Source: Sipunculus nudus (lineage: Eukaryota; Annelida; Sipuncula; Golfingiida; Sipunculidae). From it: a stretch of DNA of 64,000 nucleotides. The stretch is from positions 9,399,664 to 9,463,663 of the forward strand of contig CM049315.1 in assembly GCA_026874595.1 (NCBI GenBank), read 5' to 3'. The notes beneath the pieces are model-generated. The model was not told the DNA's origin and made no database searches. It was given only the letters and a program-made list of their open reading frames with translations. How positions within the stretch are numbered: position 1 is the stretch's first letter; each line of letters starts with the position of its first letter. This document shows positions 20,313-55,366 of the stretch, one piece after another. The translations under genes and the position numbers were made by a program.

Positions 20313-20322
20313 CCCGTCGCCA
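20304..20322 (-). other. Primer-binding site of the LTR element
   Basis: Begins TGGCGACGGGATGGG, two bases inside the 5' LTR, in the usual place for pairing with a tRNA 3' end. The predicted Gag start codon lies within it. The matching tRNA was not determined. Confidence 0.6.
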
Positions 20323-20324
20323 CG

Positions 20325-20518
20325 TGTAATGTATCCGTGAGGAGCAAACACAAGCAAGCAGCAAGACGTAGCAACTCAGCAAGTAAACTGACAAACTTGT
20401 TTATTCACCATCTTGTTCTCGACTTCCCATCAAGCTTTGCGGCACATCCGTTTCATTCTGCAGTTTAGTCTATCAAGCGCTCACCAGATGTCGCTAGCTT
20501 AAGGCCCAAGACATCACA
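20325..20518 (-). repeat. 5' LTR of the Ty3 element
   Basis: 194 bp, matches 15902-16095 with about two differences. The element promoter should lie here; no TATA box was confidently placed. Confidence 0.95.
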
Positions 20519-27803: not shown

Positions 27804-28051
27804 TAGAATATTTCTTTTTTTTTCTGAAGATTAAACTTTAGCTCCAACGTGCTTACGGCTGTCGTTAATATTGCTGGAGGTTATCTCATAAAGTAGCCTT
27901 TTTGACGAAGATTTAAGTGAATTAACAAGAACTGGCAGCAGGAACCAACCCTAATTTCACATTAATATACAGTTTGCCGATATGATTTCCCTGAACTTGT
28001 CCTTCTCTCAATAATATGCAATTTATCACATTCAGGACCAAGTGATCCAGA

Positions 28052-31000
28052 TCATGTCTCTGACAAATTCTGTACCTGACCGTCATTAACAGGCACTGTA
28101 AGGCATTTATCGTCTTGCTTTGGTTTATAGAACTTTGGCTGGTGGCGCCACTGTTCCACTTCCTGCACAGTTTCCGGTAATGGTCGCCATCTTGTTTCCG
28201 GAAGAATTAGGGCCAGGATCCCAGCAAGGATCGAAGTTATTCCGAATAAAATGGCCGGCATCCAGTAGCTGTGTCTGACCTATTTTAGCAATAGATAAAC
28301 ATTTCTTTTAACTCGAGCATGTTTGAATGAAGTGGTTCTTGATCTTCATCCTAGTTTAATTGATTACCTTTCCTTAAAAGTCTTTGCCTGATATTTTTTT
28401 TTTGGTCAAAAGAAACGAAGAGCTTTATGCCGGAAAAGCATGACGAAGCCTTAAGCCCAAAACACACCAATTCGGGCGCCACCCGTCAAGCGTCAAATTT
28501 GGAAAAGTCGCTCCACTCTATTTATCAATACAATGGCAAAACAGACTAACGGGCGCAACAAGCGTCAGCTATCGCTCCTGGAGCTATTTTGACGCGTGAC
28601 GCGCGCTTGCCTCGTGGGAATCCTGAACAATGACGTCATTTCGAAGAGGCTTTCATATACAACTAATTGTCATAACTAAATACACAACAGAAGCTTGGCT
28701 GTATTATCCAAACTGACGCGTGGCATGCGCGTGGTTGCCGTGTTTAGTATGTTTTGAATTCGTGGCGGGCCGTGTGCGTGGCGCACGTGTGACGCCACGC
28801 GCGCGTTCGTGTGTTTTGGGCTTTACGTTTTGTGCAGAAGTACTCGCATTATGTGAAAGTTCAAAGATACACACTAAGGGCACAGACATGTATCAGGATT
28901 TAGTATTAAACCTCACCAACATCCGCGCAGATGGTGCAATGAACGTAGCCACCCTGGCAGCAAACTGGCCGCTACCTAGACCCGTATTTCTGTATGATGA
29001 CATTTGTTAATGTTGAAATTTCCGCATCAACAAAGTCAGGTAACATAAACTTAAGTCACATATTATTTAAAAAAAGGTATTATATGTAGGTAGTACGTGG
29101 ATAGCACTATCTTTTCGAAATTTAAACGATAACTTTTAATTTCCTCACAAACTTCTTCACATAGATTTCTGACACATTTTACATGGCAAACGTTTCCAGT
29201 AAAAAATGATGCAACCGTATAATAAATAATTCAGATCTGATCATAATTTGTTTTTATTCGGGAACTGTTAAAAGGTTAAAGATTGTTATATTTACAGTAC
29301 CTGATATTTGTTGGATACATTTCCGGTGTGATTGCAATGATGGCCAGAAAGGAAGCAGACACAGCAAACTTCCCGACTATACTTAGGAACACAGTCAAGG
29401 GCACCCGGGCCGGACCAAGATCTACATAACATTATAACTTCATCATTTTATCTCTTTATTTCATGTTTTTATATATAGCCAATGTAGGATACAAATATAT
29501 GATCTTAAAAAGTCTGAAGGTGATAATTTGATTAACAATAATTTCGAAATGAGAAGTGGTTGTTCTGATGAGTATACAGATAATTATATATGTTTGTTCG
29601 TAATTGATTATAATAATAAGAAGAAGAAGGAGGAGGAGGAGGAGGAGGACGGACAAATTACAAATAAAAATATTTAAGGTATTTAATGTTTTTGTTGTAG
29701 ATGTCTCGATCGTTATTAGATTGTCAAAATTTAAGCTTATGAATTTATTAAAATCATATATTTATTTAACAAGAAACATAATCTCACAGTTTCATGCTGA
29801 TGACAGCAATGAGACCTTATAAAGGTACATTTCGCCGAACTTACTTGATATAATACTGATAGAAATGGAAATAGGAAGTGGTAGATTTACCCAATGTCTG
29901 GACAGCAGTAGCCAGAAGAGCAGCTCCGCAGAGAAAATGAAATCCACACAGCGGGCGCACTCGTCCGAACCTTTTAACGCAAGCAAAAATAAACGGCCTC
30001 GTCAACTAGCTGCGTATCATGTGGCTCAAATACAACTGACCTTAGAGCTTCGTACTGAATGACCACGTATGAAAAAAAAGACACATCTTTCTTTAAAGAT
30101 AAAGATTATTTACTCCGTTTTTACGGCATTTCGTTTAATCCGTGAAGCCATCATTACAGTAAATATGGTTATTTCACAGCTTAGCTAGCAGATGCACGGT
30201 AGATATGTTATACATTATTTCAGTAAGTAGTTTCTAAATGGTGTGTTTTCATAATGATTGGCGCTCTCGCATTTCAAGATTAAACATTAAGTTAACAGCA
30301 TCTACTTAGTCAGAAATGGTAATTAATTACACAGAGAAACATATATGAATTGCATAAGATCGCAGAAAGGACGACTAGCTTCACACTAAAAGAAATATGT
30401 GAAAGAGCTACGTTTATCCATTATTATTGTCTACAAACAATTACGTACCTCCGCAGGAAATACCCACATATATGGAAAGCTGGTATTTCAACCAGTGCGT
30501 AGAAGAAAAAATTCAGATAACGATTCCCGACCAGTGACGTCACAGTCAAGCTGAGTCCCATATACACGAAGCAATTGACGAACCTAGAGAATATGAATAT
30601 GTTAAACTATACCATGGAGGGGAAGCCATAGTGAATAACGAAACGTTTGCCTGGTTTTAATTAATATACTTTCATGACTCTAGCTGGATGTAGAATTCAT
30701 TTTTATAAGAGGACATAAGTTGCTTCGACCCGCATTTGCATATAACTAATCACCACAACTAGGCTTATATTCCTGTCAGACGGGTAAATCCTTCGATAAA
30801 TTCACATACTACATGTGTAATATCTATCTTCAACGTTTGGCTCCTCGAAAATGAACTTCCTGGCGTTCTCAATCTTACCATATAAAAATAAGTACAGCTG
30901 TATAAAGCCTTATTGACGGTGATGTGATAAACACCCTGAGCCTTTTTTTAATGGGCTCTGACGGAATTCGTTTCCTCTTCCTGAACAGTTTTCCGAAACA

Positions 31001-34000
31001 GCTGACATTTTTTAAGTCAACGTTTGAGTCTGAAAGTAGATGAAGTTTCATCAATAGTTTGTTTCTTTTATAAAAGTATGTTTATATTTAGACATTTATG
31101 TGTTAAATTAAATCTATTTAACTTAACCTAAAGTTTTACTGACATAGTATTTAATCTACCTGAAAACAAAATATATACAGTTGCACTTCTTTTACAGCCA
31201 ATACAATAAGTTCTATATGTACATTTTAAATACATTTAGTCTATTACATGTGAATGACCCATATTATTTATAAAAGGATCAAAATAGAATCACAGATCAG
31301 TCGTTTCCATAACCCAAAAGAAATCACTTCACTTGTACCGAGAATGAAGTCACTTGTTATATGGTCAAATCAATTTAATAAATTGTGAATTATTTTACAG
31401 AACTTTTTTATTAATTCGTGCCATTTTGTTCTGATGAATGAATTTTCGTCAAATGGACGACGATTAATCACAAAATATCCTTCAAGAAATAGTATTGTGA
31501 CACAGCAGTAATATTCCTGTAATTTTTCTTCTCTTCACAACTTTCTTTTCTTCCTGAAAACAACAGAGCGATAATAAGACCTTGTACCAGACTATTATTC
31601 TGTGGTACTTACAATCCTCTGCTCCTTTGATGAACACTACTTCCGGTAACGTGACCTTGATTGTTTTCCCCGCTTTTCTAATGATATCCTCGGCCTCCTG
31701 TACTTTTCCATTGGCCAGTAACCAAGGCACGCTCTCGTTGACAAACCTAAATTTATAACCGACGTCGTGTACTGGATTCAACCAAGTTTGTTCACTTACT
31801 TACATGAACAGAGGGTAACAGAAATTAAACTTTGGCATTTTTTTAAACAAAAAAGATGGAACTAGGGTTCACAGAAATTAAACTCTGGGATTTTTTTAAA
31901 CATAAATGGTGGAACTAGGGTTCATGGTTAATTTAAAATTGTCTACATAAAACACATGATAATCTGATTTCGTTTCTGGTTTTTATCAATTATTTGCATA
32001 TTTTTCAAACATCATTACCAGGTGTGAATATTAGAAGGATCGTGCTGTAGCACATTTTAAAAGGCCATACATACGTTTCATCTGTTGTGTTCTGTCATGT
32101 AGTCTTTCAATTATAGATTAGAACAATCATTTAAGCAGCTGTTTTATTAATAATAAACAAATAAGCCATGTGCATGTAAAATAAAGCAAGCACTTAATAA
32201 TGAAAATGGATAAAATCGTATACTACTAACCAATAAAATATTATCGTGATGCTTAGTGGAATAGATAGTGTCATTTGCAGATGACGCCAGTTCCGCAGTA
32301 AATAGACTATCGGTGTCAGCAACATCATGCCGATGCCCCATGCTGTCTCAATGAACACACTAGCAATAGTCCTTTGTTTCTTGGAAAAGTGCTCAATCGA
32401 CAATATCAAACCACTATTTACAATTCCCTGTGAAATAAAGAAAGAATGGATATGATATACACAGAGTAGCGAGTTATTCCAAAATTGATACATTTCCATA
32501 TACACCGTTCGATGTGAATTCTGGTATACTTTTTACCTATATGTACACCACGAGATATGGAAAGAATAGCTAAAACAAGTAAAACCATACGACTCTTGTT
32601 AATGATAAATATACATATATTGTCAAAACGAAATATGTAGTCATGATATATATTTAGATATTCACTTAACGGATTTTTTTAGAATTGTCTGGAAGTATAC
32701 ACGGTTCTGTTAGAAGACCCTTGAATTTTACATCCTGAAATATTTTTAGAATGAATAACTTATTGAAGGTTGTTGGACCTGGAAACGTTAAACAATTGTG
32801 GAAGGGATATTTTAGCATTTAAGGAGGTATTTACAGAGTTCATTACATATTTAAATATCTGCGGCTTCTATGCATTTGATTGTTTCGGCGGTGGAATCCT
32901 GTGTAAGAATTATGTAACATTATAGAATATATAGTGCTATATTATGTTATTATACAATACTGACTTTGATGATCATTAATTTTCAAGGATGTGTTTGCCA
33001 AAAGCATGCACTGTGATATGCAGCTTAATTACTGTTTTTCATCGGTGTTCATCACAGAAGCCTGCCATATGTTTCCATGTTCACTCACCAATATTACGGA
33101 ACGGTTATCATCAAAGAATGCCTGTTAACATATTTCCATGTTCACTTACTTGTATAAACGATCGGTTATTATCACAGAATGCCTGTTAAAATGTCACCAC
33201 GTTTACTCACCTGTATTTACGAACGGATATCGTTACAGAATGCCTTATAAAATATTTCCAAGTTCACAAACCTGTATTAACGATCGGTTATAAACACAGA
33301 ATGGCTGTTAAAATCTTGCGACGTTCACTTCCACAGTGTTACCGAACGAATATCAGTACAGAATGCCTGTTATAATGTATCGACGTTCACTAACTTGTAT
33401 TAACAATCGGTTATAATCATAGAATGGCTATTTAAATTCGTCCACTTTCACTAACCTGTATTAATGATCGGTTTTTATCACAGAATGCCTGTTCGAATGT
33501 TTTCAAATTTACTAACCTTTATAAACGATCGGTTATCATCATAAAATGCCTGTTAAAATGTTTCCATGTTCACTAACCTGCATTAAGATTCCTTCAAAGA
33601 ACAAGAACGTTGCGTAGAATGTGAAGTTCGGAGAGAAGGCCAGAATTATACCGATGATTACTTTTGCCCAGACACATCCTAGAAATGTTGGCCTCCTCCC
33701 GTACACATCGGACACTGGGCTAAGTAACGGAGCTCCCACGGCTTGTCCGATCCCATTTAGCATCATTGATAATTCAGCCAGGCCATCTTTGTCACAAACC
33801 AGATCAAACTGAAATGAAAAGCTTGGATAAGTCTATATTCACGATTTCTGTTATGAAAAAAAGACCGAAAACCCGTTTACACGTTTCGATGGAAATTGCT
33901 TTAATTATTTACTAGTAATGAAATGTTATTGGTATACACTTTGATTAAACATGAAAGCTCAAATGATTCAGTTTTCAGTGAACTGATAATGCTAAAATAA

Positions 34001-35335
34001 ACGAAATAACCCAACTAATACCATGGAAAGAAATAGGTTTCATTTTGTTTTCGCTTTGCAAGCGTCGGTTTGTCCGATCTTGTTCAATGTCAATGAGAAG
34101 TCTGCCGAGAAATATTTGCCACAAAGTAGGTTTAAGTGGAATGCAAATGGCGCGACAGTTATTATCCTTGTCGTGTGATTTGGCAGTATAAAACCATATT
34201 TCTAAATAGTAATACACGTTTATCAACAGTTGCTTTGGTATGGATAAAAAATATCGGGAAATACCTTGGTTTACGATGAATTAATGATACCACACAATAT
34301 TTCTCTGACATTATAACCTAATTATGATAAAGCGGGGCCTCATAGGGGTTACATAGAGAAACGAACATAGGGTCTTGAAACTCTACCTGAAATGATTAGC
34401 AAAGTACATAATGACGAAGGAATCACATACGTATAAAATGGCAGTGAGCGATAAAAAACATTATAGTAGGTTTAAATATTTTAATCATATACCTCCGTCA
34501 CTACCGTAGACTCGTACCCTGCCTCCGGATCGTACCAGTAGCCGTCCGTGCAGGCCTGCGTGTTGTTACTCATAGCGGAGTCCACGTACATTTGACACTG
34601 AGACCAAGCCCATTTCCCATTCCGGTATTCCTGGGGTATGCTCACGTTCAGTAAGGCATTATTAGGCAGGCGACAACGATGAGGAGGTGTATCCCCTGAA
34701 AACAGTATATGATACGTTGATATAATATGTTATTATTTCGCAAGGGCTATCAGTTTATTCATCTATGCTTGATAAGGATGGACAAACTATGCCTATCATG
34801 AATCTTAGCAATATGTCAAACGCCGATTTGGTATACATATGTAGCTTATTTTTGATACATGCATGTAAAATGTTGTTCCTGCAACAATACATACTTTCGA
34901 TGCACTGGAATGCGATTTAACATGTGCAACTCTTGCAAACTTCCGTTCAAGACGTCAGAATGATACTCCGTAAAAATCTTAAAGGAGCGGGCTTTCCTGT
35001 TGCATGTAACCAGGAAGTTAAATGTCTAAAGTACGAACTCGAACATTATTTGAACTAACATTAGCGTGTAAGTTTGAATATGTTTAACTTCAGTTTGACT
35101 CAATCCATTAAAAGGAACGTTTGGCAGTTTATGCTATTAGGAAGGCCTAACTCTCCAGCATATGAAGATTTGGACATGTTATATTTAAATGTTTACCTAT
35201 AAACATCAGTGACATCAATGCCCATGAAAATACAATTCCATATGCAAAACCAGTAGGAAGGCATGTTTGCATGTGCCAGCGACTGAATTTGCCGAGAAGT
35301 CCAACAGCTTCGTCAGCGGACAGTTCCTCCCCCAT
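28052..35335 (-). CDS. SLC22-family organic ion transporter, copy C (11 exons, 563 aa)
   Basis: Paralogue of copy B with the same architecture. Exons: 35197-35335, 34493-34695, 33578-33808, 32231-32427, 31613-31746, 30879-31029, 30449-30583, 29891-29970, 29301-29421, 28917-28989, 28052-28279. The first ten have exactly the same lengths as in copy B; only the last differs, encoding an extra tail ending NLSET. Visible marks: LGKFSRWHMQ near residue 15, an extracellular loop with three cysteines and two sequons (NVS, NNT), FDLVCDKDG, SDVYGRRP, YLLRNWRHLQ, NESVPWLLANGK, EMYPTNIRNTGLGSG and PETRWRPLPETVQEVEQW. Exon 3 uses a normal donor (CAG then GTTAGT), unlike copy B, and that donor sits at the end of a 61-bp repeat array. 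All frames are open; probably functional. Confidence 0.93.
28454..28822. mobile_element. PIF/Harbinger-type MITE in intron 10 of copy C
   Basis: 369 bp with 14-bp terminal inverted repeats (AGCCCAAAACACAC and its complement), flanked by a 3-bp TTA target duplication (28451-28453 and 28823-28825). The interior is GC-rich (GACGCGTGACGCGCGC) with no coding potential. A TTA duplication is the hallmark of PIF/Harbinger insertion; the family name is inferred from that alone. Confidence 0.75.
29611..29649. repeat. Trinucleotide tract (TAA)n(GAA)n(GGA)n
   Basis: Three adjoining trinucleotide runs in intron 8 of copy C. The open frames read through them (poly-R or poly-L) are artefacts. Confidence 0.9.
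31818..31923. repeat. 53-bp tandem duplication in intron 4 of copy C
   Basis: Two adjacent copies (31818-31870, 31871-31923) of a unit starting ACAGAAATTAAACT and ending GGAACTAGGGTTC, with a few differences. Confidence 0.85.
33010..33600 (-). repeat. 61-bp tandem array carrying replicate 5' splice sites
   Basis: Nine degenerate units with a period of 60-62 bp. On the minus strand each places a donor-like sequence at the same phase: GT at 33088, 33149, 33210, 33271, (destroyed near 33332), 33394, 33455, 33516, and the authentic exon-3 donor at 33577. Examples are CAG/GTGAGT (33210), CAA/GTAAGT (33149) and CAG/GTTAGT (33455). The unit spans the last bases of exon 3 (TTAATGCAG, versus TTAATACAG in repeats) plus intron start, so the array arose by duplicating an exon-intron boundary. 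Confidence 0.88.
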
Positions 35336-38300
35336 ACTTCATCTGGAGCGGTTCAGATAAAATTAGCTTCGCTCCAATTAATAGAGACTGATCTGAAAAT
35401 ACAATTAGCAGATATCGATTCAACACGTGTTATATTTTCAATTAGAATATTTCAATCTTCCAGCAAGCACGAATCACGCAATTACGGTCACGTTAACATG
35501 CGGGAAAAAGCCGAATGAAGAGTATAACGTTACAGCTGCCCGTTTTGCCTTCCGTATACGCAGCTTCACTAATTGTGGTCATTTACTTTACAAACATCTA
35601 CATTTCATTGTTTATGTCCATAAGTATATGTAAATTAACAATGATTTGCTGATTTTCGCCCGTTTTATTTCAGTTTGAACTGGTTTGTATCATAGAAGTC
35701 TGAATCTTCTAAGATGTTTAATCTAATCGGACAACCATAGCGTTCCCTTTTTTCAACCTTCTGTAAGACCTGTATGGTAGGAAATCGTGTAGATTATTTG
35801 TTTCTTAAATTTTCCTCAACATTTAGCACTGGTTTTCATTGAGTGGACGCCTATCGCTATACCGTTTTGAGGCAAATGTTCATTGAAAGAGGTCCTATCA
35901 AAAGTGATTTGCCATATTTTAATCAGATATTTTTCATTAACATAGAACACGTCTACTAGCTGTGTTAGCATGGTCTCACACTGAGCCATTATGAGCTGCC
36001 AGTAATCATTATATATGCATATTGTACCATATTACTTATTTGAGACATCATGTATAATATTATATATGGCAAACTTAATATGTCTTTTTTTCAAGAGATC
36101 TCCCATTCGGCTCTTTTGTATTTTGGTCTGTATTACCGGGCTAACACCAGAGATATCCTTTGTACTAATATTTCGTATACAACAGGATTGATGGTGGCCT
36201 AGGAAGTTTTATTGTTATCATGCCGTTTACTGTAAAATTAGTAAATGGAAGCTTTAGGTTTGACGTTATGGGTAACCCATGTGTAATAATTATCATGGCC
36301 CAGTGACTAATCTCTGCTGTGTTGATAATAAATCGAGCTCTGGTAGGTACAGTTATAAAAGGTCTTTTGTATCACTGGATTAGGTTTCTTTCCGAATACA
36401 TTCTATAGTCTTCTGCACTTTTCTTTAAAGAGATATTATTGGATATAGAGTGCTTGTGTGGTCTAATATTGAAGTTTTTGTAAAGTGCTGGAATTACTTT
36501 GGATCTGTTATATAACAAATTATTATAGGCAATGAGTGTAAAAAAAGCCACGACCTGTCAGTGCCAATGGAACACATTAATCTATGCACCTTCACCCTGA
36601 GTTCTACAGTGTTTAGGACCGGTTTGTGCGCTTCCATGTATATCTTTCTTACGCCAGTGCCGTTAAGAGTTTGGTCATTTAAAGCGGATAATAAATGCTT
36701 ATGAGTGCTACATTCGTTGGCGTTTGTTGACTTGAAATGGTGGTGCGGCGAGTGAGTGAGGGATGCACATATTAGCATACATGAACCCAATATGCCTGCA
36801 CATCCTTTGGTGTTAATCGTGGTTTGTACCGTCCCCGGGACAAAGCTAAATCAAGATTCATGCTTTATTATAACGGTGTTATAGCACGAATGCTAAAATG
36901 TGCAAGATACCAGTTCTAGTAGAGTAAAAGCGTTTTGAAGTAAATTGTCTGAAGATGCATGTCCAGCTCACAGTGTCAGAAAATGGCACATATAATATGA
37001 TAGGAAATCTTTTTACACACGCTTGAAACGATTATCTGTTTTCCTTAATGAATTTGTAACTTTATAAAATGAATTTACATTTTATTTTTGGATCTAAATT
37101 TTACGGAGGTAACAGGGTCTTCTGTTCAAATTAGTAACTTTGTAACTATTTAGTCGAGTATGGTTTGCGGAGCATTGCGTGTAAGGGCTGCTTCATTGTC
37201 AACCATTACGCAGTCGCCTGACTCTGTAGGGCCCAGCTGTTATTTTAATTATTTTCTGTATAAAACAGCAAACAGGCTTATCTGTACATCAGGCAAGGAT
37301 TGCCAATTCATCGTCAGCTTAATATACATACAGAGAGAAAACACCTAGATGTATATTTAACTAACAGAAACTAGTTCATCAGTTTAAACGCGATCTTATC
37401 ATTTGTATAGACTGCAGTTTAGACAAAAGCTTATTTGTCTCAATGTTCCGAGCAATAACGAAAAAATTGCATTTTTTCAAAGTATAGCGTAAAACGCCCT
37501 GAGGATGAATTTGAACCACATTGTTATCTGGCGCCTGAGGCGCGCCGGAAACTTTAGGCAGCTGCTTGGGGACAAAATCACTTTTTGCTTAATGATTTGT
37601 TTGACTGTGAAATATATACACAAATGTGTTTAAGATTTTACCAAGCTTCTATGTAATGCTTCTTGAGCAAAAAAGACGATAAATATTTCTTCTTATTCAT
37701 GAAGAGGGGGTGAAAAAAGGGAAGTGATACAAGTACACACCCTCCCTTGTAATGACCCCTGTATTTCAACATTCACTAGTTTGGACCTGACCGTAATTGC
37801 AATTTTTTTACCTGAAAAAAATGAACTGTGCTTATAAATAGGTTTCATATATCCAAGTGATTAATGTATATAAAATGTATATCTAAAAGCATGTTATACC
37901 TCCCAGAAAAGCAATTTTCGGCTGACAGAGCTTCTTGTTAAGGTAATCAGTGTCATATCAAGCTCAGCAGACGTTCCACCTTCTTGGTCATTTGTATATT
38001 TAATTTCATAGTTAAATATTTCTATATGATGAATTCCAAAAAAATCTTTTTGTTATTTCCATAATATATTATCCCAAGAACGGAATCTCCCCGATTAAGG
38101 AATTGAAAAGATACAGTTATTTATTATGTGCACCCGGGGAGCCGAGACGGCCAATATGACTTTCGCTGTGCGGTATATAGGGTCGTATCACATTTGAACA
38201 GTGCCTATATAGATTTTTGGTGATCTTTAAACATATGCTATATGAGCAACATCCATGTACCCATGTGTCAATTTTTCCATCAACTTAATTAGCTTTAACA

Positions 38301-40945: not shown

Positions 40946-43900
40946 TTACTCGCTTCGCTCTTCTCCCTTCTGTTTACGCTGTGCTGTTTCATCACTATCA
41001 GGACCGTGGGCTGGAGATCTGCGTTATGAATTAACATGATGTAAAGAAATCAGCATAGCCTATATACTTGATAAATTTATATAAAGCATCAATTGAAAGC
41101 TGAATAATCATTAGCTTCAAAAGGAAAATATGTCTACTATAAAAAAAGTCAAGCTACTAATTTTATGACCTAAATTTAACTCGGCTACATAAACACACCC
41201 AATAAACCTAAAATTTTTTGCTATATACCTAGCCCCTTAAATAATACCTAAAATGCAGACAACTTAAATCTTATTACTGGTCTCCCATTTTTTACATCTT
41301 AATATGAGAAGTATATCCGACAACAGGTCTCACTCTCTCTCATTAACAAAAAAAGAAAAAGAAAACCTTTTGCGACCAGCCTTTCCCTTCGTGCTCCTAG
41401 AACCTCGCACTGATCTGTGTTCAACCTCCCTCGAAAATGTAGCCCTGTACGGGGGATATCATTGTTTATTATACTGAAATTTATTGATTAATTAATTCAC
41501 ACAAGTAAGGCTTGTTTTTGTTATACATAAGGAATTGTTCCTGCGAGAGCAAGCAGACATTACTTATTAGTTTCTATTCCTGTTTTACAAAACATAATAG
41601 AAAAATGATATTAAACCAATTAACGTTTTTACCAAACCAAAAAAAAAAATCTAAAATACCTTTGTATATTTGGAATTGTATAATTCCTATTGTATATTTG
41701 GAAGATGGAATATTTAAGTGAATTGTATGGATTTTTAAATAAACAGTCGGTTAGTTATACCTAGGTTTAGCGGAATTGTCTTCAATTTTATCACGAATTA
41801 ACATTCGCTGCAATAGCGCCTCCTGGAGGAAAGGCAGATCATCGTCCAGATCTATCCAGCCCTCAAATCCTCGTTCCTTATACAGGTACTGTACATCAAT
41901 CGCTTTCTCATCTAGCCTAAAATCCTGTGATATGTATTTCATGATGTCCTTCCTGCGCCTTGAAGACAGTACCAGTCTCTTCCTTCCTCTGTATGTCGCA
42001 ATAATTTTCATTTGACCTACAAATAACTATATAACTAAATAACTTTTTAATCACTCAATCAACCAATCAATCAATCAGTCAAGCATATGAAGAATAACCT
42101 ATTTACACATGACTGATTTTGAGACATATGATTTTATAATGTAGTAAACTGAATGATTAATTATATATTATAAGCCGTAGTATATCGTCCATCCTATTTT
42201 GTTTTGGTAACTGAAAGATTTATTCTGTGAAATATAATTTTACCGTATGTACATTATCAGAAACAAATGGCGAATATCTATCGCTTAGGAAAATGCTAGA
42301 TTATGTTGAAATTTAATTTTCCCTTGTTACATTTTGTCCCATCTTTAATGGAAACATAATTGTATGATAGTTTTTCTTGATAGATACATCCAAACTCTAA
42401 CTAATGAATTTTTGATAGTTATGTAACTGCATGTCATCTATGTATATAAAATTTTACTGTCTTTCAACAGTACCATGAGATTTACTGCGGGGACTGCCAT
42501 TATTTCCGGTATCGTTTCCCCCCTGCTCTTCTGTACATATCTCCTCTCCTCGTGTACGGATCGCAACGCTGACCTGGCTCTCCGATGTAACATCTTCTGA
42601 GACCTGATTCTCTTTACTGTTATTGGATAACATAAAATTATATATGTTAATGCGAAGAATATATGAAACTGTTTTTCTTTTTAAGTAATCGAATCGGTTG
42701 AATTTTTAAAAACAATTTGAATGAACTTATATTTTTATTTGGTAAATATGCGACTTTAGTTGTTTTGATCGTGGTAAGACACTGTCACCGACTCTTGATT
42801 TCCAAACCCTAACAAAATTTACTGTTTAGTCTGAGAAATAAAGCCGTTGGGTTAATCAAGGTACTACTGGGGAGAAATGGAAGAAAATTTAGGGAGATTA
42901 TCAATTTCAGTATATTGTTAGCCGACAATGTACTTGCCACTAGTTCATTTATCAATATTTTTTCTCTCCAAACTTTTTCTGATTTTCTCTCGCATTTTCG
43001 CCCGTATTTATTCTTGTATTTTGAGTGAATTATGGCGATGAACTGAACCCATTCCTTCTTTGAAATTAGAATTGACATGATTGGGACATACCTTATATTC
43101 TTTCCCGATAGTTGTATCCTTATGATGTGTCTGTCTGTTGTACTCAGGAATGACAAATCATTTATTTTAATATCGATGACAGAATCTTTGCTAGAACCAC
43201 ACTTGTACAAACACTGAATATCTGCATGCTTAGGCAGTTTAAATTTTTTCTTTGCAATTCCCTTGATACCATCTGTTGTTGGGTGTATATTCACCAATTT
43301 TCTCTTCTGTTTATATTCAAGGCAGAGCTTTCTTTTATCTAAAAAGAATACACGGAAATATCACACAGGCACCAGACCAATGTGTTTTGTTACTCATACC
43401 AGTTTTTTTTTTAGTAAATTAGTGTTTAAATTCCTGTTAGTGTGTTATCAGAAGGGAATAAATAATGTGATTCATGCTGAAATGTCCAATACGGGTCGTA
43501 TGTTACTATTGACAACTTCGAAGATATCTTACCATCTCTTACAGTCTTATTAAAGTAAAATCGCTTTTATTGTTTGTTCCAAAAAGATAAGTAATATAAT
43601 AGTTTATTATTATTTCCACATGTTAGAATTCTATTCAAATATTATAAGTAATTACTATATTTATCTGGCTAATATTACTGTTGTCATGTAATTTACATCA
43701 ACCCTCAAACACATTCATCTTGTAAAGAGATCCTTCGGAAAAATAATAATGTAACAACTAATGTAATGGTTTTTTATAGGTTATACATCATTAAAGATAG
43801 AAACACTCGAAATTCTTTGTTACAATACAGATCACCTGACAGCATTCATAACAGCAAGTCTATTTATCTTCGAATTTATTCATGTGTCAAACTTAAAAGC

Positions 43901-46900
43901 ATATACATTTTCTCTATGTCAAAAATGCACTCTAACAAAAATTATTTATTATGCTTTATGTGGTCAATTACGTAAGGCCTCAGAACTGTCTCAAGCGTAT
44001 TTGGAAAATAATAATTGTTTTTAATGTTTTCTAAATTGTTGTTGCTCAGGGGTCACTTGACCAGTACATATTCGGAACAAAATAGTTTCTCACAATGTGG
44101 AGTATAGAATACTGGGAGTGTCAACAAATGGTTGATTTTTTTTTATGATTTTATACAAAATCTTAATCTTTACAAAAAATTTTAAACTTTCTCACCAATT
44201 GTGTTTAAAACATTCCATTTTCAACAAATAAAGTTTAAAATTTTGCTATTAATTTTCTTTTTATTTCTTCCTACATTTGATGAAAAGCTTCTATTGATGA
44301 CAATTGAAGAAATTTATAAAACAAGGACTATATTCATGTAAATTTCTAACTTAAATCCCCTGTATTATCATAATTTTGACAGTTAACAATCACATTACAA
44401 GTTTTGCGACTTTATATCCAAATTTAGCATGATGTCCAGTATTTTCTTTATCTATTGAAGGTATCCTGGAAGAAACAAGTTTTTTTAAGTCAAATTTTAA
44501 AAGGTATTTAGAAATTTATAACATTTTGATACTGTCAAGTAGTATTAGAAAATCCAAGTGTGTTAGGGCGAAAGTTTGTAAAGTATGCATGGTAAACTGA
44601 AACAGTGGTTACAGGTACTCCTGAGATAGTTCTGAGACCTTAACAGCATATCCCTTAAATCTACACGGGCATTACATATCAAGTTGCATGTGTCTATGAA
44701 GAAATAATATATACTCACCTCCAGAAGACCACTGAGAAACTTTGCTGTTAAAAAAGACCAACTTGATTGTTATATGTTTAAATAATTCAGAGTATTACAT
44801 TTATCATCCATATCGTACTGTTTTAAAATTCGGCATATTCATGAGGCATAGGGTGCAAATAGATGAACAAATATAGCTTACGAATTCAAATAAATATAAA
44901 ATCATTTAAAAGCATTGATCATTAGAAATAGTTAAATTGTATAAGTAAAGTAAATAGAATAAATTCGGACCTGGAACGAAATTTCTTCACAGTCGCTCCA
45001 ACGTAAAAAATCTTAATACAATTACATATTTTTTTTGTTGCAAATTACATATTTGGTATTTTGTCTAATTTATTCACATCTTTTGCAAAGCTTTTTCCTT
45101 CTAATTACAAATATATACAAATAATAACAATAATAATCATTATAATAATAATATCAAGAAGAATAAGAATGATTATTACATTTTTGGTGGTGATTCTTCT
45201 CCTTGTTCTCCTGCGACTACCTCATCCCTGTCAAGCCACATACATACATATATACATATATATATGTACATATATAGGTATATATATGTATATGTAAATA
45301 TGAATATAATATTATGTGTTTTTACATATTTGACTGCGGCCCCTATTCTCCTGCGAGTTTCCACAACGGACGATGAGCTATATCGGACACTCTTCTTGTG
45401 GTTCCTTTTCTATCAATATTATGAAACTTATAAAACAAAGTATTTGAATTTTCCTGAGCCATCGCGGGTGACGGGTGCGTAACACATACTCACGGGTTTG
45501 CATCTGATAAAACCTTGATGTTCTGTATATTCCATTCATAAAAACAAGGCGAGTATCTGTCCAGAACCAACCAGCTGCTAAAATCATCAATTTCTTTCCA
45601 ATATCTGACGTCATCATCACGAACCTCGTCAAATTCCGCCCTGATCTTCTTCATGACGTCATCAAAATTCCGACGAGCTTCCAATAGTACACTTCTTTGA
45701 TGACTGGTTACAATTAAGAGCATGCTCTCTAGAAAATGTCAAAGATAAGCACAGTTTTTCATTTCTGGGCACGATTTATTTAAAAAAGCAAACTAGGTAA
45801 AAATATTGAGCGGTAACACAGGGATATATTACATTGAACTGGGTCGTTCTCATAAATGTAAAATAATATCCGGTAAAGTGTAAATATATGGCTTACCTCG
45901 CTTTGAACCAATAGGCCACGTCGTAATGTGAAAGAGATTATCGCGATATTCATGTCCTAACATATTTTGCAGTTTACATACATGGTTAAATCTAGCCTTG
46001 AAGTCGACTGATAAGAATTCAAGGATATGAAAAGAATTTAAATAAATCCATTAATCTTATTCTTTATGTCGTGGGTCGTACATGTATATCCGACAAGAAG
46101 ACTTAAAAGCGCCTCCCACCTGAGTCATTGCAGCATGATGATTTTTGGAGACAGTTACATTCCCAGCAGGTGCTGTGTATGTTCCTGCTGCAGCCCGTAT
46201 CGCCTATCCTGTTAATCACAGATGTTCTTTATATCATTAAAATGAAAGAAAGAATAATATATGTCCGAACTTGGACAACGGATATGGGAAAATATTTTCT
46301 ACGGTTTATCTCTAAGCCTATGTCTCTAAACCAATCAGATACCTCAGAAACCTTCATTCTCAATATTTGAATCTATCCAAAATCCAAATGGGTTTGCTAT
46401 GCCAAGAGTACATTATATAAAGCAGAAGTGGCATGGGTAACCTGGACCCATATCCGACGCAGCGTCATGTCATAAACTCGCTATCCGAGGAAATCTCGAG
46501 AACTGGGGAATCCTGGAATCCCGCCCATTCCTCAATTTCATTCCTCAAATCGAGACAGCAAACGCATTATTAAGGTTAAGTGCTTCATACAGTGTATTTA
46601 TTATCTTATTCCTTGCGAGTATTTTGGCAGGATAAGAACATCTAGTATTCCTTTCTATGTTATAGCCCGGTAAGTTTTATGCATGTCTATCGACCATAAA
46701 TAACAAATTATGGGTTAGTGTTAGAATCTTAAAAATTCGATAAACATACGGCAGGTCGACTTCTGTGTAAAGCTCATTTTCTTTCTCATCTTTCGATCCA
46801 TTAATGCAACAACAGCCAACCAGGAAGGCGATGACACCAAATATCTATAAATATGAACCAGAAACTGACAATATTCCAAAAGAACCAATATCCGACTAAT

Positions 46901-47789
46901 ATTCATCTAAAGCTTTATAAAAGTGCTTTACTGAGGAACATAAATACGATCTTAAGGTAGATTAATTAAACCAACGTCATATATCATTACATTTATTGCC
47001 AACAAATTACGACGTATTTTCAAGCGATGAAAAGGTTCATATTATCTGCCTGACTAAATAATATATGGTCGTTGATTGCGAAACCCAGAATCAAATTTAA
47101 TTAAAAAAATTACGTGTATATAAAGGCGCCAGGTCCTAATAAAGACTTCATAGAATTTTCGCATCTGGTTATTGATTTATTTCTAATGGTAAATATGATT
47201 AAACATACTGATTTAATGCAGTAGTGATTAATTGAAATATAATCACATTAAAATTTAAATTAAATAAAAGTACAATTCAATTTTAATAGAAGTAAAATGA
47301 CTCACTCCCATGGCATAGGCAAGCAGCGCCCCGAGTTCGAAAAAAGTTTGTATGGCATCAAACTGGCGGCCTTCACCGGTTACTGTGACTAGGAAGCGAA
47401 TGCCATAAGCTTTTATAAGCATCCGTTTGTGCTTCCCGTTTTCAAAATAATTGTAGGCAAATCTGTAAAACAAATATGCAAACATGACGTTCACTTTTTT
47501 TTTCAATCCTACTTTAATCAAATCCAACTATACAATAAAAATTAAATATTTCAAACTTGCATTTCCTTTAATCTATTTGACATCGAATTATCATTTAAAC
47601 AGAAAATTCTAATGCAAGACCTAAGCTGATCATGATTGAATTTATGTTAGTTTTTCATTTTACTGCTTTAAATATTATAGGCTACAACAAGCAATCCTTT
47701 TGAGGCATCTTCAAACGATTTATTTCCCGGTATTATACCTAATGAAAGTATAAGATTTGACCAAAATTCATTTTCTATCTGAACAATAG

Positions 47790-48044: not shown

Positions 48045-50412
48045 TTTGTCCAAACAATTGCATTGTAGTGCTAAATATGATTATATATAAATATATATAT
48101 TTATATATACATCTATCTATTTACATATCGAGAGAGAGAGAGAGAGATGTATGAGCAGCCATGCTACAAATTCGCTGTGCCGACACATGTAGTAGGTGAG
48201 ACCATCACTACCATGTCGTCACTTCGCCGGTTCCTATAAAAGTGTAAAAATACACAGAGGGGTTTGGGATCTGTCGTAGCTTAGTGGTTAAAGCAGCCGA
48301 CCGGAAATCGGCAGATCATGGTTTCGTTCCCATCGGCAGTGAACCGACTTTTCTGGGTATTCTAGTTCCATCTCTATATATAATGAACCAGCATGGCTAT
48401 TCATACCTCTCTCTCTCTCTCATAATGTGATTGATTAAAATGTTGGCGTTTATATCTCTCCTCTGTTTTTATTCATTCACTGTTTTGAGCCAGCACCCAC
48501 AGAATTTAGAAATGTTATATTTTTATTGGGATGCACCGTGTTGGACATTATCGGAATTATTGTAAATAATGTGTATGGCTGGGGCCTCCATAATGGATCT
48601 CATACCTGAAGTTCAATCCAGCCGTTTTCGGATATTTTTTATCATCTAAGCGGTTTATTATATACTCGTGTTCACAAGTATCATCGTCAAAATCACACTT
48701 CCAGTGGATTCGTATCGATATGACCCCTCCCTGGTACATAATAAAATTTTACATTTATGATTTTTTACTTAGTTTTATTATTTACTTAGTATTATTTATA
48801 ATGTCTCATTTAAGATTATACATAATATATCCTTGTGCACAACACACTATTCATTATAACTAATTGTACGATAAATGTAAAAAGATAAACATTTAAACTT
48901 AGGCTATTAGTTCCAAAATATAGTAAAAATAATACAACGTAGAGCTCGATAAAGTTGAGCCTCCATTGTCTTGTAGAATAATTTATTCTATCTTTCCAGA
49001 TAGATTCTCATTACTTCAAACTTAATATAGATTTTAATATATATATAAGCTAAAACGTGTTGCACAAATATATATAAATAATTTATAATGACATATTCTG
49101 ATGTAATAAGCCTAACCTTAACAGCGATGGTGTCATAGTCCTCGCCAGCAGCCCGGACCAGTGTTCCTACATCAAACACCGGGCAGTATTGTCTCCGGGG
49201 ATGTCCAGCTGCATACGTACAGTTTTCTAAAAACTCCTCACTGTCTTCATCATGTACAATGTTCCTCCTGTGTCATGTTAACAGACCGCGCGAGAAATAC
49301 ACGTTCATATTTGTGTATGGTTACTTTTTCTTTAACAAATATACAGTATACAAACAGTAACACTATACGATAACAAGACAATTAATATAGAAGAAACGTG
49401 ATTACAAAAAGTACAATAACTGTAGAAGCTACTAAAGACCTGCTTGTACAATGTAACAGTATAGATAAATTGCGTTTACTTTCCCATTTTAATAATTTTA
49501 ATTTTAATGCTGGTAAAATTAGGCTATGTAGTCCAAACTTTAAAATTTAATTATTTCCTAGTATGGTTTGTGAAATGTTTCAATTTTATTTTGGGCATAG
49601 GACATACTCCTTATATGCACATTCTGAATTTCATGGATCTGTGCGACTATTATGATGGCGGGGGGGGGGGGGGGGGGGGAGACAACCCACAGCTACACGG
49701 AAAGAAATAGTACTTTGTCACCCCCTTCCTAAAAGTGACGGGAACACGACCCCTTTGAAACAAGGTTCATGGCAGTTTTCTTATATTATGTAATAACTAA
49801 GTTTGGTGCACAGCATTGCTTAACTACACTTCTCAATTGTGATGACTAAAAGTCATTGCCAGAAGATATATGAGTTTTAGGAAGAAACGATGCTACTGCG
49901 TCACCAACTATCCTTGTATGCTGTTCTGATGATTTGGAAAGTTAAAAAGGACAGGTTTATTTCTTAACTACATATAATTTCTGTTATGGTTTGGTTGAGG
50001 AAAAGGGATGTTGCCTATTACCCACAATTTCTCACATGAATATAACGTTGTTTCTTAACTGTAATTTTTTTTTTAATGACTTTTTACATTTTCTAAAGCC
50101 TGAAAATTTGCTAATTACATTTATAAATTTCCGCAGTTGTTTCTTTGATAAAAGATACTGCATCGGTAAATTTCTTATCAGACTGACCATGATTAAATGC
50201 CGCCATATGGCATCATATAAAAAAATAAACGATACAGGTACTGCAGGATGTATGTACATTCACACATACATATTTTTGTGGCCAATATAATAAGTGCCAG
50301 GCCGTTTTTACCTCCGTTGGTTGAATCGTGGGAAGAGGACATTGTTCCGTAATTGAACTTGGAAATTCCTTGATTCCAACAGAGCTGCACTACCGTTGCT
50401 GTGAAGAATAAT

Positions 50413-50509
<97 letters not shown>

Positions 50510-53426
50510 GTAAGCTCTTATTTGAATAAGCGCATTTTCACTTGATAGTATGGTAACATAATTCGTTAAAATTCTAAAATCTATATAAATTTAGATTATT
50601 AATTGAAGATCGGTAAAATGTTTTATTCATTTATCAATTGAATGAATGTAGGTACATGAATATATTTAAGTGTATATATTTACATTGGCAGTTTGTCCAA
50701 TTCTACGGGGCACCACGCTCTGACTTCACACACACTAATGTTGGGGTTCATCGTCGAAGGTATACATTTGCCAGTTTTGATCCCTGAAACGACGAGAGAA
50801 ATCTTAGTTCTGGATGAAGACACGAAAACTGTGTGCCAGAAAACATGATTCAAATCTATATTTTTCGAGATACCTGGAAATTCCAGTATATCATAAAATA
50901 CTTATATGTACCGTACCATGCATTATGGTTTCGCCATGTGTACACGTGTTGTTGCTGTCACACAACGCACCGGTTACATCGGGATCCTGTGAACAATAAT
51001 TTCACGTGAAATATTTCAAATACTAGTACTTGATATTTTTTATCAGTGTTTCTCTCATCAGGGTTTACGTTTTAACTCTACAAAACAACCCAGAAAATAT
51101 AGGGGTAAATACTGGTAACAATCAACGATTATCAAGAGACGATATTTATATGTACTTGTTTGACTGGCTGATAAATTGTATTTTGACGATTTATAGATAT
51201 TAGTATACATTTTGAGCGAAAAAGAGATTTACAGTTAAAAATCCATGTAATCTTGCCCAAGCTCTCTATAGGTCTTATTTTTATGAGGTTGTGGGGGGGG
51301 GGGGGGGGGTAGCCGACATGTCAGCGACGATTTTTAGGATTTTAACACATTTACAGACTTGAATGGTTCAGCTAAACATAATTGCCAAGAACAATTTTGA
51401 TTTTGATGGCAATCTGCCTAGAATTTCAATATATTTAATATTTAAAAAAAATGTTGCCATAGCATTAAAATGAAAATTTGACAAGCAGTGAAAGAATGAC
51501 AACTGTAACGATCAGTTTAACTTTAAAATTATTTGTTTGAGGTGCATGATTCCTAATCACAGACCCAATGAAAAAAATCAGAATTAACGGCCCCAGGATA
51601 GATCCCTTCTAATATTTAAGTTGTTGCAAATGAAAATGAACAGTGATTAATAAATCTTGATGTAAACATTGCCAACATTTTTCTTGTGTACACTTTCAAA
51701 GTAGGTATTCCATTAATACGTATGCGAATGCCAACAGTATGCATTAATATCGGACATGTAGTACAGAGCTGAAAAAGTAGAGAAGTCTACCATAGAGGAG
51801 TTACCGTGAGCGATCGAAGGGTGCTACATACGCATACGTGTTATTAGTGCACACGCATATATGGAATCGTAACGCAGACGTATACGCACATTTGGTATGC
51901 CACCTTAAAATATATAAAGAAGTGCCCCCTACCTTGAGGATTACATAATATAAAAAAAGGGCAAAACTAATCGGGACAATAGGGATATCGTCGTTCATCG
52001 AGGTGAGCGACATAGGAGGTTAAACTTAACATTTATCTACCCACGAACAAAATATAAAATAAAAGCAATGAGAAATAGAGATGGTTGGTGGTTAGTTAAG
52101 TTCGGTATTTAATTATTTCTACCTCTGCACAAACTCCCTGCTCTTGTTCGTGAGTGTAGATCATGTTGGTCATCACGAAGAACGCTCCATTGTCCTGTAA
52201 AATGAAGAAAAAAAGAGAGAAAGAAAAAAATATAGAATTTATTAGGTAAGCAATAAAAGAAAACAAGGCAGACATATGAAAAGGGACAATTTTATCGTGC
52301 AATCTTAAGTGTTCTTATAAAGGTATCGTTGTCTTTTTTAAATAGTATATAACAATTTAAAGGCTGGCGTTTCATGACCATTTTCCATATATAAATCATG
52401 TATCCCCGAGGGTTTGTCCTTTTTTATGGAAATAAGTGCCAGTCAAGAAGGTTATTGGTGTATTTTTTTAATAAAAATTCTTTCGTGACAACGTTCGTGG
52501 TAAACCAGCAACTGTACAGCAAGTGTTTGCTTGGCACTCGATTAAATAAGACACCTCACCTATATATAAGATCCTTAATAAGAAGGTTATGAGAAAGTTA
52601 TATATCCTATACGAAAATCAAATCATTTATACTGCAGAGGGGTGTGTAATTAAGAATATCAGTGGGCCTTGTGACCTGCATGAATAATTTTAGAAAAAGT
52701 AAAGATATAAGAAACAAAAAGGGCTGGTTTTAGGCACAGAGAGCATAAAAATGGTTATTTTCAGGAATAATTTACCAATCTTGTGCGCTATCCCCTCGGA
52801 TTTCTTCCAAATAAATAAAATAACAAATTTCGATAAAATACCCCTGTGTTATGAATTTTCACCTGTTCAGCAAAATAAATGTAATGATTTTAATGTTGTC
52901 ACCTGGTCATATGAAATTCCAATGGAAAATTTAAAATAAAAATGTAAAAAAATCGTCCTCTCGCACTAATGTCTGAAATAAAAAGTTTCTGAGGTTTACT
53001 GCCTGTGGTTGAAACAATATGTTGACGGTCGCAAGACGGTGAAAAATCAGATTTGTCAAACGAGAGAATTCAAGAAGATGAAGGTGTTGTTAGTTGCTCT
53101 TCTTTGTACTTTAGAAATACAATAGTGAATGTAACTTTTATTTAGGTTTTCTTATAACTCTTCGGTTGGACCCTCCCCTTTAATTAAATTCTGGAACCTG
53201 GAATCATGGAAGTTCAGTTAAACCATAGAAGGATCTAACCTGAGGCGGAATGATGTAGTCAGCAGAATCAAACAGCATATTGTCGACGACCTCCGCATTA
53301 GGTGAACGGAGACTTTCGTTGTATTGAGCACTGAAGTTGGTCAACGCAACTCCCTTCAGCTTTATAACGACAGCGCCCACGGGAACATCGGTAGCCTGGT
53401 AACGCTTCGACAACAGCAGAAATACC

Positions 53427-53480
<54 letters not shown>

Positions 53481-54554
53481 ACGCTTGAGATGTCACTGGA
53501 TTATGATAACGAGGTATGTCAACCGGGAGAATGCACGTCACCGCAAATGCCACAGGTAGATCCTATCAATGTTTAATTATCAATTTCCTTACGCTCCACG
53601 CCGAGCCTTAAGAAATGTGTAATATAACAAGAATCATCACTTTGTTCATCGAGGTATAACTAATGACTACAGCCCGCACGCAGAATGCATAAACTGCTTT
53701 GATATAGTTACTGTGTATATAGTTCATTAATATATGTGCAGAGTAAGCCAGTGTTCACATATATTTTACAGATAAAGAATGTAAATAGTTGGCTTTAAAT
53801 ATTCAGTGAACTAGGAAAATGTTGTTGGACTCCTCGTGGTCGGAGAGCTAAAACACAAATAGACAAAAAAAAAAACATATTCAAAATAGTGATAAACTCA
53901 CAGCCGGACCTAACCTTCTAATTATACAGTATAAACACACAGCCGGACCTAACCTTCTAATTATACAGTATAAACACACGCCGGACCTAACCTTCTAATT
54001 ATACAGTTTAAACACACAGCCGGTCCTAACCTTCTAATTATACAGTATAAACTCACAGCCGGACCTAACCTTCTAATTATACAGTATAAACACACAGCTG
54101 GACCTAACCTTCTAATTATACATTATAAACACACGGCCGGACCTAACCTTCTAATTATACAGTATAAACACACGGCCGGACCTAACCATCTAATTATACA
54201 GAATAAACACACGCCGGACCTAACCTTCTAATTATACAGTAAAAACACACAGCCGGACCTAACCTTCTAATTATACAGTATAAACACACAGCCGGACCTA
54301 ACCTTCTAATAATACAGTATAAACACACAGCCGGACCTAACCTTCTAATTATTCAGTATAAACACACAGCCGGACCTAACCTTGTTATTATACAGATGTC
54401 CCTGATGGCTCTTATTTCTTTTGTGGAATTAACCAAAGCTTTAGTAAAATGTCTGACACAGATTTGAAACAAAACACACCTATTTATGCACAGGGTTTCG
54501 GTTTTTTTTTGCTCAACTGACTGTAAGTCATCTGAGCTATAGCGATCACCCTTT

Positions 54555-54607
<53 letters not shown>

Positions 54608-55366
54608 TAACCTGGCACAAATCGTAACGCTGGACCTAGAAACTTGTAACTTGACATTCTGAGAGGTCCATGAAAAATCTCCTTGGAAACCAGAAATGAG
54701 GTCTCTGTTACTAAACAACTAATGCAGAGGTCACCATGATTCTTTGCATGGATATTGACCATGTGTTTTTATTAGTTTCTGCAGACTGGTGGAGCCACCT
54801 GTATTTTTTTATAGTTTACGCATTTTTTCTATATTTTTGAGATATATAAACACAGACACAATCTTGGCCTGTTGGTTAATTCCTTTTGATGCTTCAGTTG
54901 AATGGGTATATACTACCATTCAGATGATAAAATTTCCTTTTACGAATCACTTCCCAGTCAGCTGAGCGTCATGACCCATGGGTCACTTGTTTTAATACTA
55001 CAATGATAACATTACCAATACAACTAAACTGATTCCATCTTCGTAGCCAAAAATTTTGGGATAGTTCAGTAGGCCCAGTTACATAACAATCGCCCACATA
55101 GGGCCTATAAGAGCAAGGAAAATGATATCCTCAACGAAGCTTTATTAGCCTCAGGCCACCGGGCGAGTGTTAATATCGAACCCTACGTATATAAGTACTT
55201 ACACTGGCCCCACGATTACAACTACAAACAGAAGAATCTGTAGAAGACCGCACACTGGTCCCATATAAAAGCTCACTTCCCGAGGGAATGAGTAGGAGCA
55301 GGGCGCGGTGCAGCAGGATGCCTGGGTACCGTGAAGACATTGTTTACAGCAAACCCTGCAGCCCAT
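40946..55366 (-). CDS. P2RX: P2X ATP-gated cation channel with long PB1-like C-terminal tail (17 exons, 760 aa)
   Basis: Ligand-gated cation channel opened by extracellular ATP; P2X subunits are two-pass membrane proteins that form trimers. Exons: 55203-55366, 53240-53426, 52123-52194, 50917-50986, 50684-50783, 50312-50398, 49117-49267, 48606-48730, 47306-47462, 46750-46844, 45897-45991, 45494-45728, 44719-44744, 43092-43338, 42474-42616, 41761-42016, 40946-41018; total 2283 nt, all phases consistent. The N-terminus is cysteine-rich (MGCRVCCKQC); TM1 about 36-60. ATP-site residues are K77/K79 (IKLKGVALTN), N317-F318-R319 and K336 (LIKAYGIRF). All ten ectodomain cysteines are present (139, 150, 156, 171, 183, 189, 243, 255, 289, 296). 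TM2 about 357-385. The tail holds a charged, probably helical region (436-512) and two ubiquitin-fold, PB1-like modules (about 525-600 and 654-730). Oddities: Q211 replaces the usual ATP-site threonine, there is no YxxxK after TM2, and the N-terminal TxR/K site is altered (SFPRE). Exon 11 acceptor is the weakest call. Confidence 0.92.
41761..43338 (-). other. Duplicated ubiquitin-fold (PB1-like) modules in the P2X tail
   Basis: Exon 14 (43092-43338) encodes KLCLEYKQKRKLVNI ... IQCLYKCGSS ... INDLSFL ... HIIRIQL. Exon 16 (41761-42016) encodes KIIATYRGRKRLVLS ... VQYLYKERGF ... WIDLDDDLPFLQEAL. Both show a hydrophobic strand with a basic Y/K-rich turn, a K/R-rich helix, a (Q)xLY strand and an acidic (D)DL-FL segment, the order seen in beta-grasp domains. 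The basic first strand plus acidic D-DL segment most resembles PB1; CIDE-N and other ubiquitin folds are alternatives. Both exons enter in phase 1 and leave in phase 2. Exon 15 (42474-42616) is a polar linker rich in S, E and G. Confidence 0.6.
47791..48037. repeat. Cluster of (TA)n tracts with inverted spacer motifs, P2X intron 8
   Basis: TA tracts at 47791-47850, 47891-47931 and 48008-48037. The spacers contain AATTGCGATTGTATGGACAA and related copies, and an inverse form (TTGTCCAAACAATTGCATTG) lies just after the cluster. Confidence 0.85.
47932..47978 (-). repeat. 47-bp copy of part of P2X exon 7
   Basis: Matches 49210-49256 inside exon 7 (encoding about HDEDSEEFLENCTYA) at about 42 of 47 positions, same orientation, with one indel. 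It sits between TA tracts in intron 8. Not a usable exon: flanked by repeats and frameshifted by the indel. Confidence 0.75.
48265..48421 (+). mobile_element. tRNA-derived SINE in P2X intron 8
   Basis: Box A (TAGCTTAGTGG, 48277-48287) and a box B-like GGTTTCGTTCC (48320-48330) are followed by CAGTGAACCGACTTTTC, ATGAACCAGCATGGCTATTC and a CT-rich tail. The paired GCCGACC ... GGAAATCGGC region resembles an anticodon arm. Box B departs from consensus and the acceptor stem does not close, so it is a SINE head rather than a tRNA gene. Confidence 0.65.
49660..49679. repeat. 20-base G run (C run in the P2X transcript), intron 6
   Basis: Uninterrupted G on the plus strand. Confidence 0.95.
50417..50503. 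repeat. (TA)n microsatellites next to P2X exon 6
   Basis: Two TA tracts (50417-50459 and 50463-50503), starting about 19 bp upstream of the exon 6 acceptor on the transcript strand. Confidence 0.9.
51293..51309. repeat. 17-base G run, P2X intron 3
   Basis: Second long homopurine run in this gene; C run in the transcript. Confidence 0.95.
53429..53478 (-). repeat. (TC)25 microsatellite forming a polypyrimidine tract
   Basis: Fifty bases of GA on the plus strand, read as TC in the P2X transcript, ending two bases before the exon 2 boundary (CTCTCAG then GGTATTT). It supplies the whole polypyrimidine tract of intron 1. Confidence 0.92.
53898..54395. repeat. 39-bp minisatellite, about 13 copies, P2X intron 1
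   Basis: Units of 38-39 bp beginning CAGCCGGACCTAACC and continuing TTCTAATTATACAG, starting near 53902 and repeating every 39 bases to about 54390, with a few point differences. No spacers, so not CRISPR-like. Confidence 0.95.
54513..54993. mobile_element. Short inverted relative of the 23-26 kb array element, P2X intron 1
   Basis: Read backward, it matches the ends and one internal unit of 23151-26513: GCTCAACTGACTGTAAGTCA at one end, a (GTCT)n run, AGACTGGTGGAGCCACCTGT, and GTCAGCTGAGCGTCATGACC at the other. About 480 bp, so most array units are absent. Confidence 0.8.

Follow-up and report, generated by a model that had tools for sequence, protein, structure and literature searches.

A predicted P2X receptor of Sipunculus nudus with three candidate beta-grasp modules in its cytoplasmic tail

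Introduction

In P2X receptors the ATP site involves two lysines, the NFR motif, a lysine before the second transmembrane segment (TM2) and the NFT motif, and the receptors usually carry a T-x-K motif at the N-terminus and a Y-x-x-x-K motif after TM2. To our knowledge, no P2X other than P2X7 has a large folded domain on the cytoplasmic side, and the way in which this tail domain is tied to inflammation is still under debate. According to PMC7016195, the juxtamembrane cysteines of P2X7 are palmitoylated and its ballast arose by capture into a P2X4-like gene.

Two further systems enter the comparison made here, the PB1 domain and the immune regulator CYLD. The acidic OPCA pattern of PB1 domains reads D-x-D/E-G-D. 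PMC8200828 deals with the role of this motif in PB1, and the review PMC10320722 reports that human CYLD binds NEMO through its CAP-Gly3, which modulates NF-kappaB.

Here we describe a P2X gene of Sipunculus nudus that lies in a 64-kb window (C10:9399664-9463663, in an assembly of 1.43 Gb), to whose positions all gene coordinates below refer. The gene runs on the minus strand from 55366 to 40946 and encodes a predicted protein of 795 residues. Our leading interpretation, to which we give roughly even weight, is that a P2X subunit captured a beta-grasp module in its cytoplasmic tail and tripled it, yielding a protein-docking tail coupled to a signalling scaffold.

Results

A P2X core followed by a long tail

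The original prediction, made from the sequence of this stretch, was of 17 exons in unbroken phase that link a canonical P2X core to a long tail. Our independent rebuild confirms, as a predicted gene model, the core and the tail, with phases that run unbroken to the stop codon at 40946; the number of exons, however, is 18 (Table 1), and all 17 introns are bounded by GT..AG. We placed Met1 at 55366, since the residues ahead of Met35 look like exon 1 of one paralogue (query residues 19-53). The earlier residue numbers were about 33 lower, as if counted from Met35.

The Pfam family P2X_receptor (PF00864) matches residues 40-389 with an E value of 1.1e-88, and the best solved structures for the core are the P2X structures 3i5d (E 1.4e-63), which we take to be zebrafish P2X4, and 9bqh (E 4.9e-63). 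In common with P2X4 and other P2X cores, the protein has ten ectodomain cysteines, between residues 139 and 296, that align with those of 3i5d, as well as the ATP-site residues of IKLKG, NFR and IKAYGIR, as had been predicted. It differs from those cores in reading NFQ at the NFT position and in its tail of about 400 residues. The usual T-x-K and Y-x-x-x-K sites read FPR and YTEVD. The post-TM2 motif is also lacking in two close paralogues at C10:40.48-40.50 Mb (YTKTE and IHAEE), and in the paralogue whose exon 1 was seen the N-terminal site reads NRE. At and after TM2 there are cysteines at positions 382-384, 409, 417, 420, 422, 428, 429 and 443, a CCC run being followed by the Cys-rich exon 11.

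With P2X7, described in PMC7016195 as having a C-cys anchor and a zinc-coordinating ballast, the protein has in common the P2X core, the Cys-rich juxtamembrane segment and a large cytoplasmic tail. The tail itself differs, being made up of predicted beta-grasp modules that are distributed across many exons. Pieces of it match no Pfam family at E values up to 10, a result that bears on a P2X7-type ballast only as far as Pfam models such a domain, the ballast motif itself not having been aligned. We infer that the capture of this tail was independent of P2X7. Among the literature matches listed, no P2X with PB1 or ubiquitin-like modules was found, most subscription papers being outside the coverage of the search.

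Three related modules in the tail

Two tail segments of like build had been recognised originally; both exist, as exons 15 and 17, but the count is three, exon 13 having been missed. Each module occupies a single exon with a phase-1 start and a phase-2 end. Exons 15 and 17 are 28% identical (BLASTP 5e-4 for the single pair), with a score reached in 2 of 2000 shuffles, and exon 13 is likewise similar to exon 17 (BLASTP 4e-6; score reached in 0 of 2000 shuffles).

The basic and acidic faces that had been predicted for the two original segments are clear in exon 17, where the N-terminal half carries a charge of +9 and the C-terminal half -6 (matched by 17 of 5000 shuffles), and moderate in exon 15 (+10/+1; 140 of 5000), but they are absent in exon 13 (0/-3; 1827 of 5000). 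Among seven external copies of the module, two are strongly bipolar (matched by 35 and 72 of 5000 shuffles) and five are not; the incomplete copy C11:29797 was omitted from this count.

Relatives of the modules elsewhere in the genome

When exon 17 was used as a genome query, ten further places, exon 13 among them, were found at E values up to 10; a copy on chromosome 11 (C11) likewise retrieved ten others, including exon 17. Exon 13 retrieved itself and two weak places, one being exon 17, and exon 15 retrieved only itself. A profile was then built from eight copies outside the P2X gene, including C11:29797, which loses frame near its end, and leaving out C10:40.219 (disrupted), C7:78.95 (stops), the C6 copy (near-identical to that on C13) and C8:46.98 (weak, with stops). 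Among the 1182 open frames of the window, this profile ranked exons 17, 13 and 15 as the top three (E values in Table 1). Exon 15 is not established by the profile by itself, because the next frame, on the plus strand, scores 0.089 against its 0.059. By eye, a phase-1 acceptor stands at the matching place in six of the eight external copies and a clear phase-2 donor in three. By these computations the predicted modules 1 and 3 are homologous to copies elsewhere in the genome, and module 2 is linked to them via its likeness to module 3.

The disrupted relative of exon 17 at C10:40.219 Mb has a phase-1 acceptor, an internal stop and a frame change, and lies about 260 kb from the two P2X paralogues. 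At C13:48.7177 and C6:10.2314 Mb, near-identical module copies sit in 213-codon frames beside a long open reading frame, possibly a mobile element; for the frame beside the C13 copy a match to DUF4218 (E 0.014) was too weak to name it. The frames that follow the module exon at C2:44.204 Mb are reminiscent of fish SAMD3-like proteins.

On chromosome 11 a joined exon pair 5' of the module matches the CYLD CAP-Gly domain 1ixd, presumably the third of that protein, with an E value of 4.3e-12, and Pfam CAP_GLY matches two joined pairs (6.8e-9 and 3.4e-9). Such a pair adjoins the module at five of the six chromosome-11 copies, on the same strand and with the module 0.6-2.5 kb 3' of the pair, while no CAP-Gly exons were found in roughly 11 kb upstream of the sixth (C11:29787949). 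The upstream sequence covered at the C2, C13 and C6 copies was 1 to 1.5 kb. A regular expression for second CAP-Gly halves proved too strict, overlooking genuine halves that were recognised afterwards. In all, six CYLD CAP-Gly-like exon pairs lie at C11:29.76-29.80, 68.45-68.47 and 69.20 Mb, and five are followed by a module exon; the sixth pair is at C11:69199125-69199770 on the plus strand. The likeness to CYLD lies in the position of the module family 3' of CYLD CAP-Gly-like exons. The P2X protein, in contrast, has no Pfam CAP_GLY match, and PMC10320722, as far as consulted, names no such module for human CYLD.

Predicted fold of the modules

The fold was modelled for exon 17 only, from a three-row alignment. 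The model and its structural matches agree with the beta-grasp (ubiquitin-like) fold originally proposed, which we predict for the module with moderate confidence. Its narrower description as PB1-like stood in part: the strand/helix order and the top structural matches, PB1 in five of the first six rows, are those of PB1 domains (MEKK2, PKC iota, NBR1, Par6), but sequence comparisons do not follow. Pfam PB1 matched neither the window modules nor seven external copies, the PB1 profile PF00564 run on the genome found four places, none of them a module, and a profile comparison of the modules with the Par6 PB1 was null. Nor did a sequence search of the PDB with the tail find a relative, or a search of NCBIfam with ten modules, in which two members each gave one weak match (E 0.014 and 0.11). 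By eye, D-x-D/E-G-D is absent from exon 17 (KERGFEGWIDLDDD), which reads K-E-R-G-F at that site, and from exon 15 (KCGSSKDSVIDIKIND); KEIDDF in exon 13 is partly acidic. A candidate for the strand-1 lysine of type II domains is Lys3 in the exon 15 and exon 17 modules, with none in exon 13, in a register that was not residue-aligned to PB1.

The modules might instead be ubiquitin-like in action, recruiting ubiquitin-pathway or trafficking proteins such as deubiquitinases or sorting adaptors and regulating receptor turnover, with no self-pairing. The Z scores are tied (9.0 for PB1, 8.5-8.6 for ubiquitin and ISG15), and among the 50 structural matches listed, 32 are ubiquitin, ISG15, SUMO or ubiquitin-like (Ubl) entries and 12 are PB1, by our own sorting of row titles. 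Polyubiquitin also comes first in a profile search of solved structures, at an E value that is not significant (0.032), the acidic PB1 signature is absent, and the neighbours of the module family are CYLD-type CAP-Gly exons. We nonetheless regard this alternative as doubtful, given the five PB1 entries among the first six structural rows, the strongly bipolar charge of module 3 and the fact that no module ends in di-glycine.

Discussion

How the receptor might work

In the interpretation we favour, capture and tripling of a docking module by a P2X subunit, the core would form a trimer gated by extracellular ATP. The Cys-rich stretches beside the two membrane segments suggest lipid anchoring as in P2X7, and those at the N-terminus and after TM2 probably hold the inner ends in the membrane. 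As many as nine ubiquitin-fold modules would then be on display at the inner face of every trimer. These modules may pair with each other, or may dock to members of their family in other proteins, the foremost candidates being the CYLD-like CAP-Gly genes of the S. nudus genome, and docking would couple ATP gating and clustering to an intracellular signalling scaffold. A bolder version, which we consider improbable, is that a previously unnamed beta-grasp module, common to the channel tail (in three copies) and to CYLD-like CAP-Gly proteins, wires the ATP-gated channel to a ubiquitin platform of the CYLD/NF-kappaB type by homotypic pairing, so that ATP would act as an adaptor-free danger signal.

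The tail could also be passive or gating ballast, its modules stabilising the cytoplasmic part of the trimer or setting desensitisation without partners. The T-x-K and Y-x-x-x-K motifs are not kept, so the inner ends may be held in some other way, and P2X7 offers a precedent in which a cysteine anchor is followed by a folded tail domain. Yet in P2X7 it is the cysteine anchor, rather than the ballast, that accounts for the lack of desensitisation (PMC7016195), and the paralogues also lack the post-TM2 motif, one of them reading NRE at the N-terminal site, yet neither shows modules. We find this explanation rather unlikely.

Several observations weigh against a captured and tripled docking module. 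The likeness of exon 13 to exon 15 is no better than that of shuffled sequence (1235 of 2000), and the evidence for module 2 consists of its likeness to module 3 and its phase. A single-sequence fold of exon 17 was set aside, with a predicted local distance difference test score (pLDDT) of 59.5 and incoherent matches; for the exon 17 model that was retained, no Foldseek match reached E 1e-3, and ubiquitin-type entries outnumber PB1 among its structural matches, as given above. The CAP-Gly/module link is an adjacency of predicted exons in the genome, and neither a human query nor a regular expression turned up a USP catalytic domain in the stretches fetched around the copies. As to the gene model, the backing for exons 12, 14, 16 and 18 is limited to phase and splice signals. 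Phase by itself says little, because the window plus strand holds 54 stop-free AG..GT segments of 200-270 nucleotides (nt) with the phases of the module exons. In a simple splice score based on approximate textbook frequencies, donors 10, 16 and 17 and acceptors 16-18 come out weak, but donor 5 and acceptors 7 and 10 of the P2X core fall within a similar range. Finally, no module was found in the 30 kb read at the two closest P2X paralogues (best E 1.4), and the tail is therefore not general even within the S. nudus genome.

The joining of channel and tail is argued, from sequence, by module homology, by exon phases common to the external copies and by the junction of exons 10 and 11. In both paralogues the exon 10 donor stands at the identical place and phase, with GTAAGT, and the following exon begins DTGCYR or ETGCYR, against DTGCSR in exon 11; because both keep the donor and a similar start of the next exon, we take the step from exon 10 to exon 11 to be conserved. 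That the P2X gene ends soon after TM2, by read-through of exon 10 (with a stop after 24 codons) or by a short tail following exon 11, leaving exons 12-18 to a separate minus-strand gene or a rare isoform, would suit the weak donor 10 (top 13.9% of GTs), the module-free paralogues and the long introns of 749 and 1380 nt around exon 14, but is unlikely in view of that conserved junction and of a chain from exon 11 to exon 18 without break.

Table 1. Exons of the predicted P2X gene (window positions; TM, transmembrane segment; aa, amino acid residues).
Exon	Position	Strand	Content and basis
1	55203..55366	-	N-terminal Cys-rich stretch, larger part of TM1 (aa 1-54); similar exon in one paralogue
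2	53240..53426	-	P2X ectodomain, IKLKG lysines
3	52123..52194	-	P2X ectodomain
4	50917..50986	-	P2X ectodomain
5	50684..50783	-	P2X ectodomain
6	50312..50398	-	P2X ectodomain; NFQ replaces NFT
7	49117..49267	-	P2X ectodomain
8	48606..48730	-	P2X ectodomain
9	47306..47462	-	NFR, IKAYGIR, start of TM2
10	46750..46844	-	End of TM2, CCC, YTEVD; phase-2 donor kept in both C10:40.48-40.50 Mb paralogues
11	46120..46208	-	Cys-rich juxtamembrane segment; start resembles next exon in both paralogues
12	45897..46007	-	Linker; phase and splice signals only
13	45494..45728	-	Predicted beta-grasp module 1 (aa 471-547); external-profile E 1.1e-4
14	44719..44744	-	26-nt microexon, linker; phase and splice signals only
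15	43092..43338	-	Predicted beta-grasp module 2 (aa 558-638) with basic N-half; ranked third by the external profile (E 0.059)
16	42474..42616	-	Acidic linker; phase and splice signals only
17	41761..42016	-	Predicted beta-grasp module 3 (aa 688-764); basic N-half, acidic C-half; external-profile E 1.6e-12
18	40946..41018	-	Charged C-terminus and stop; phase and splice signals only

Other features of the window

Intron 1 of the P2X gene contains, at 53890-54400, a tandem array noticed by eye, with a unit of roughly 40 bases. On the minus strand, retroelement frames with reverse transcriptase, RNase H, integrase and gag matches in Pfam occupy 16243-20375, and we presume this element to be Ty3/Gypsy-like. 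Also on that strand, an 879-codon frame at 60792-63431 has a reverse transcriptase domain (E 2.7e-36) and is probably a long interspersed nuclear element (LINE), and exons at 28000-35350 resemble what we take to be an organic-cation-type (SLC22-like) transporter.

Significance

The module family is matched by no Pfam model in the ten copies scanned. If our interpretation is true, the gene would represent a second, independent capture of a tail by a P2X receptor, this time of another module present three times over, and thus a natural experiment on the function of P2X tails. It would also offer a concrete path by which extracellular ATP could reach ubiquitin or NF-kappaB signalling in an invertebrate.
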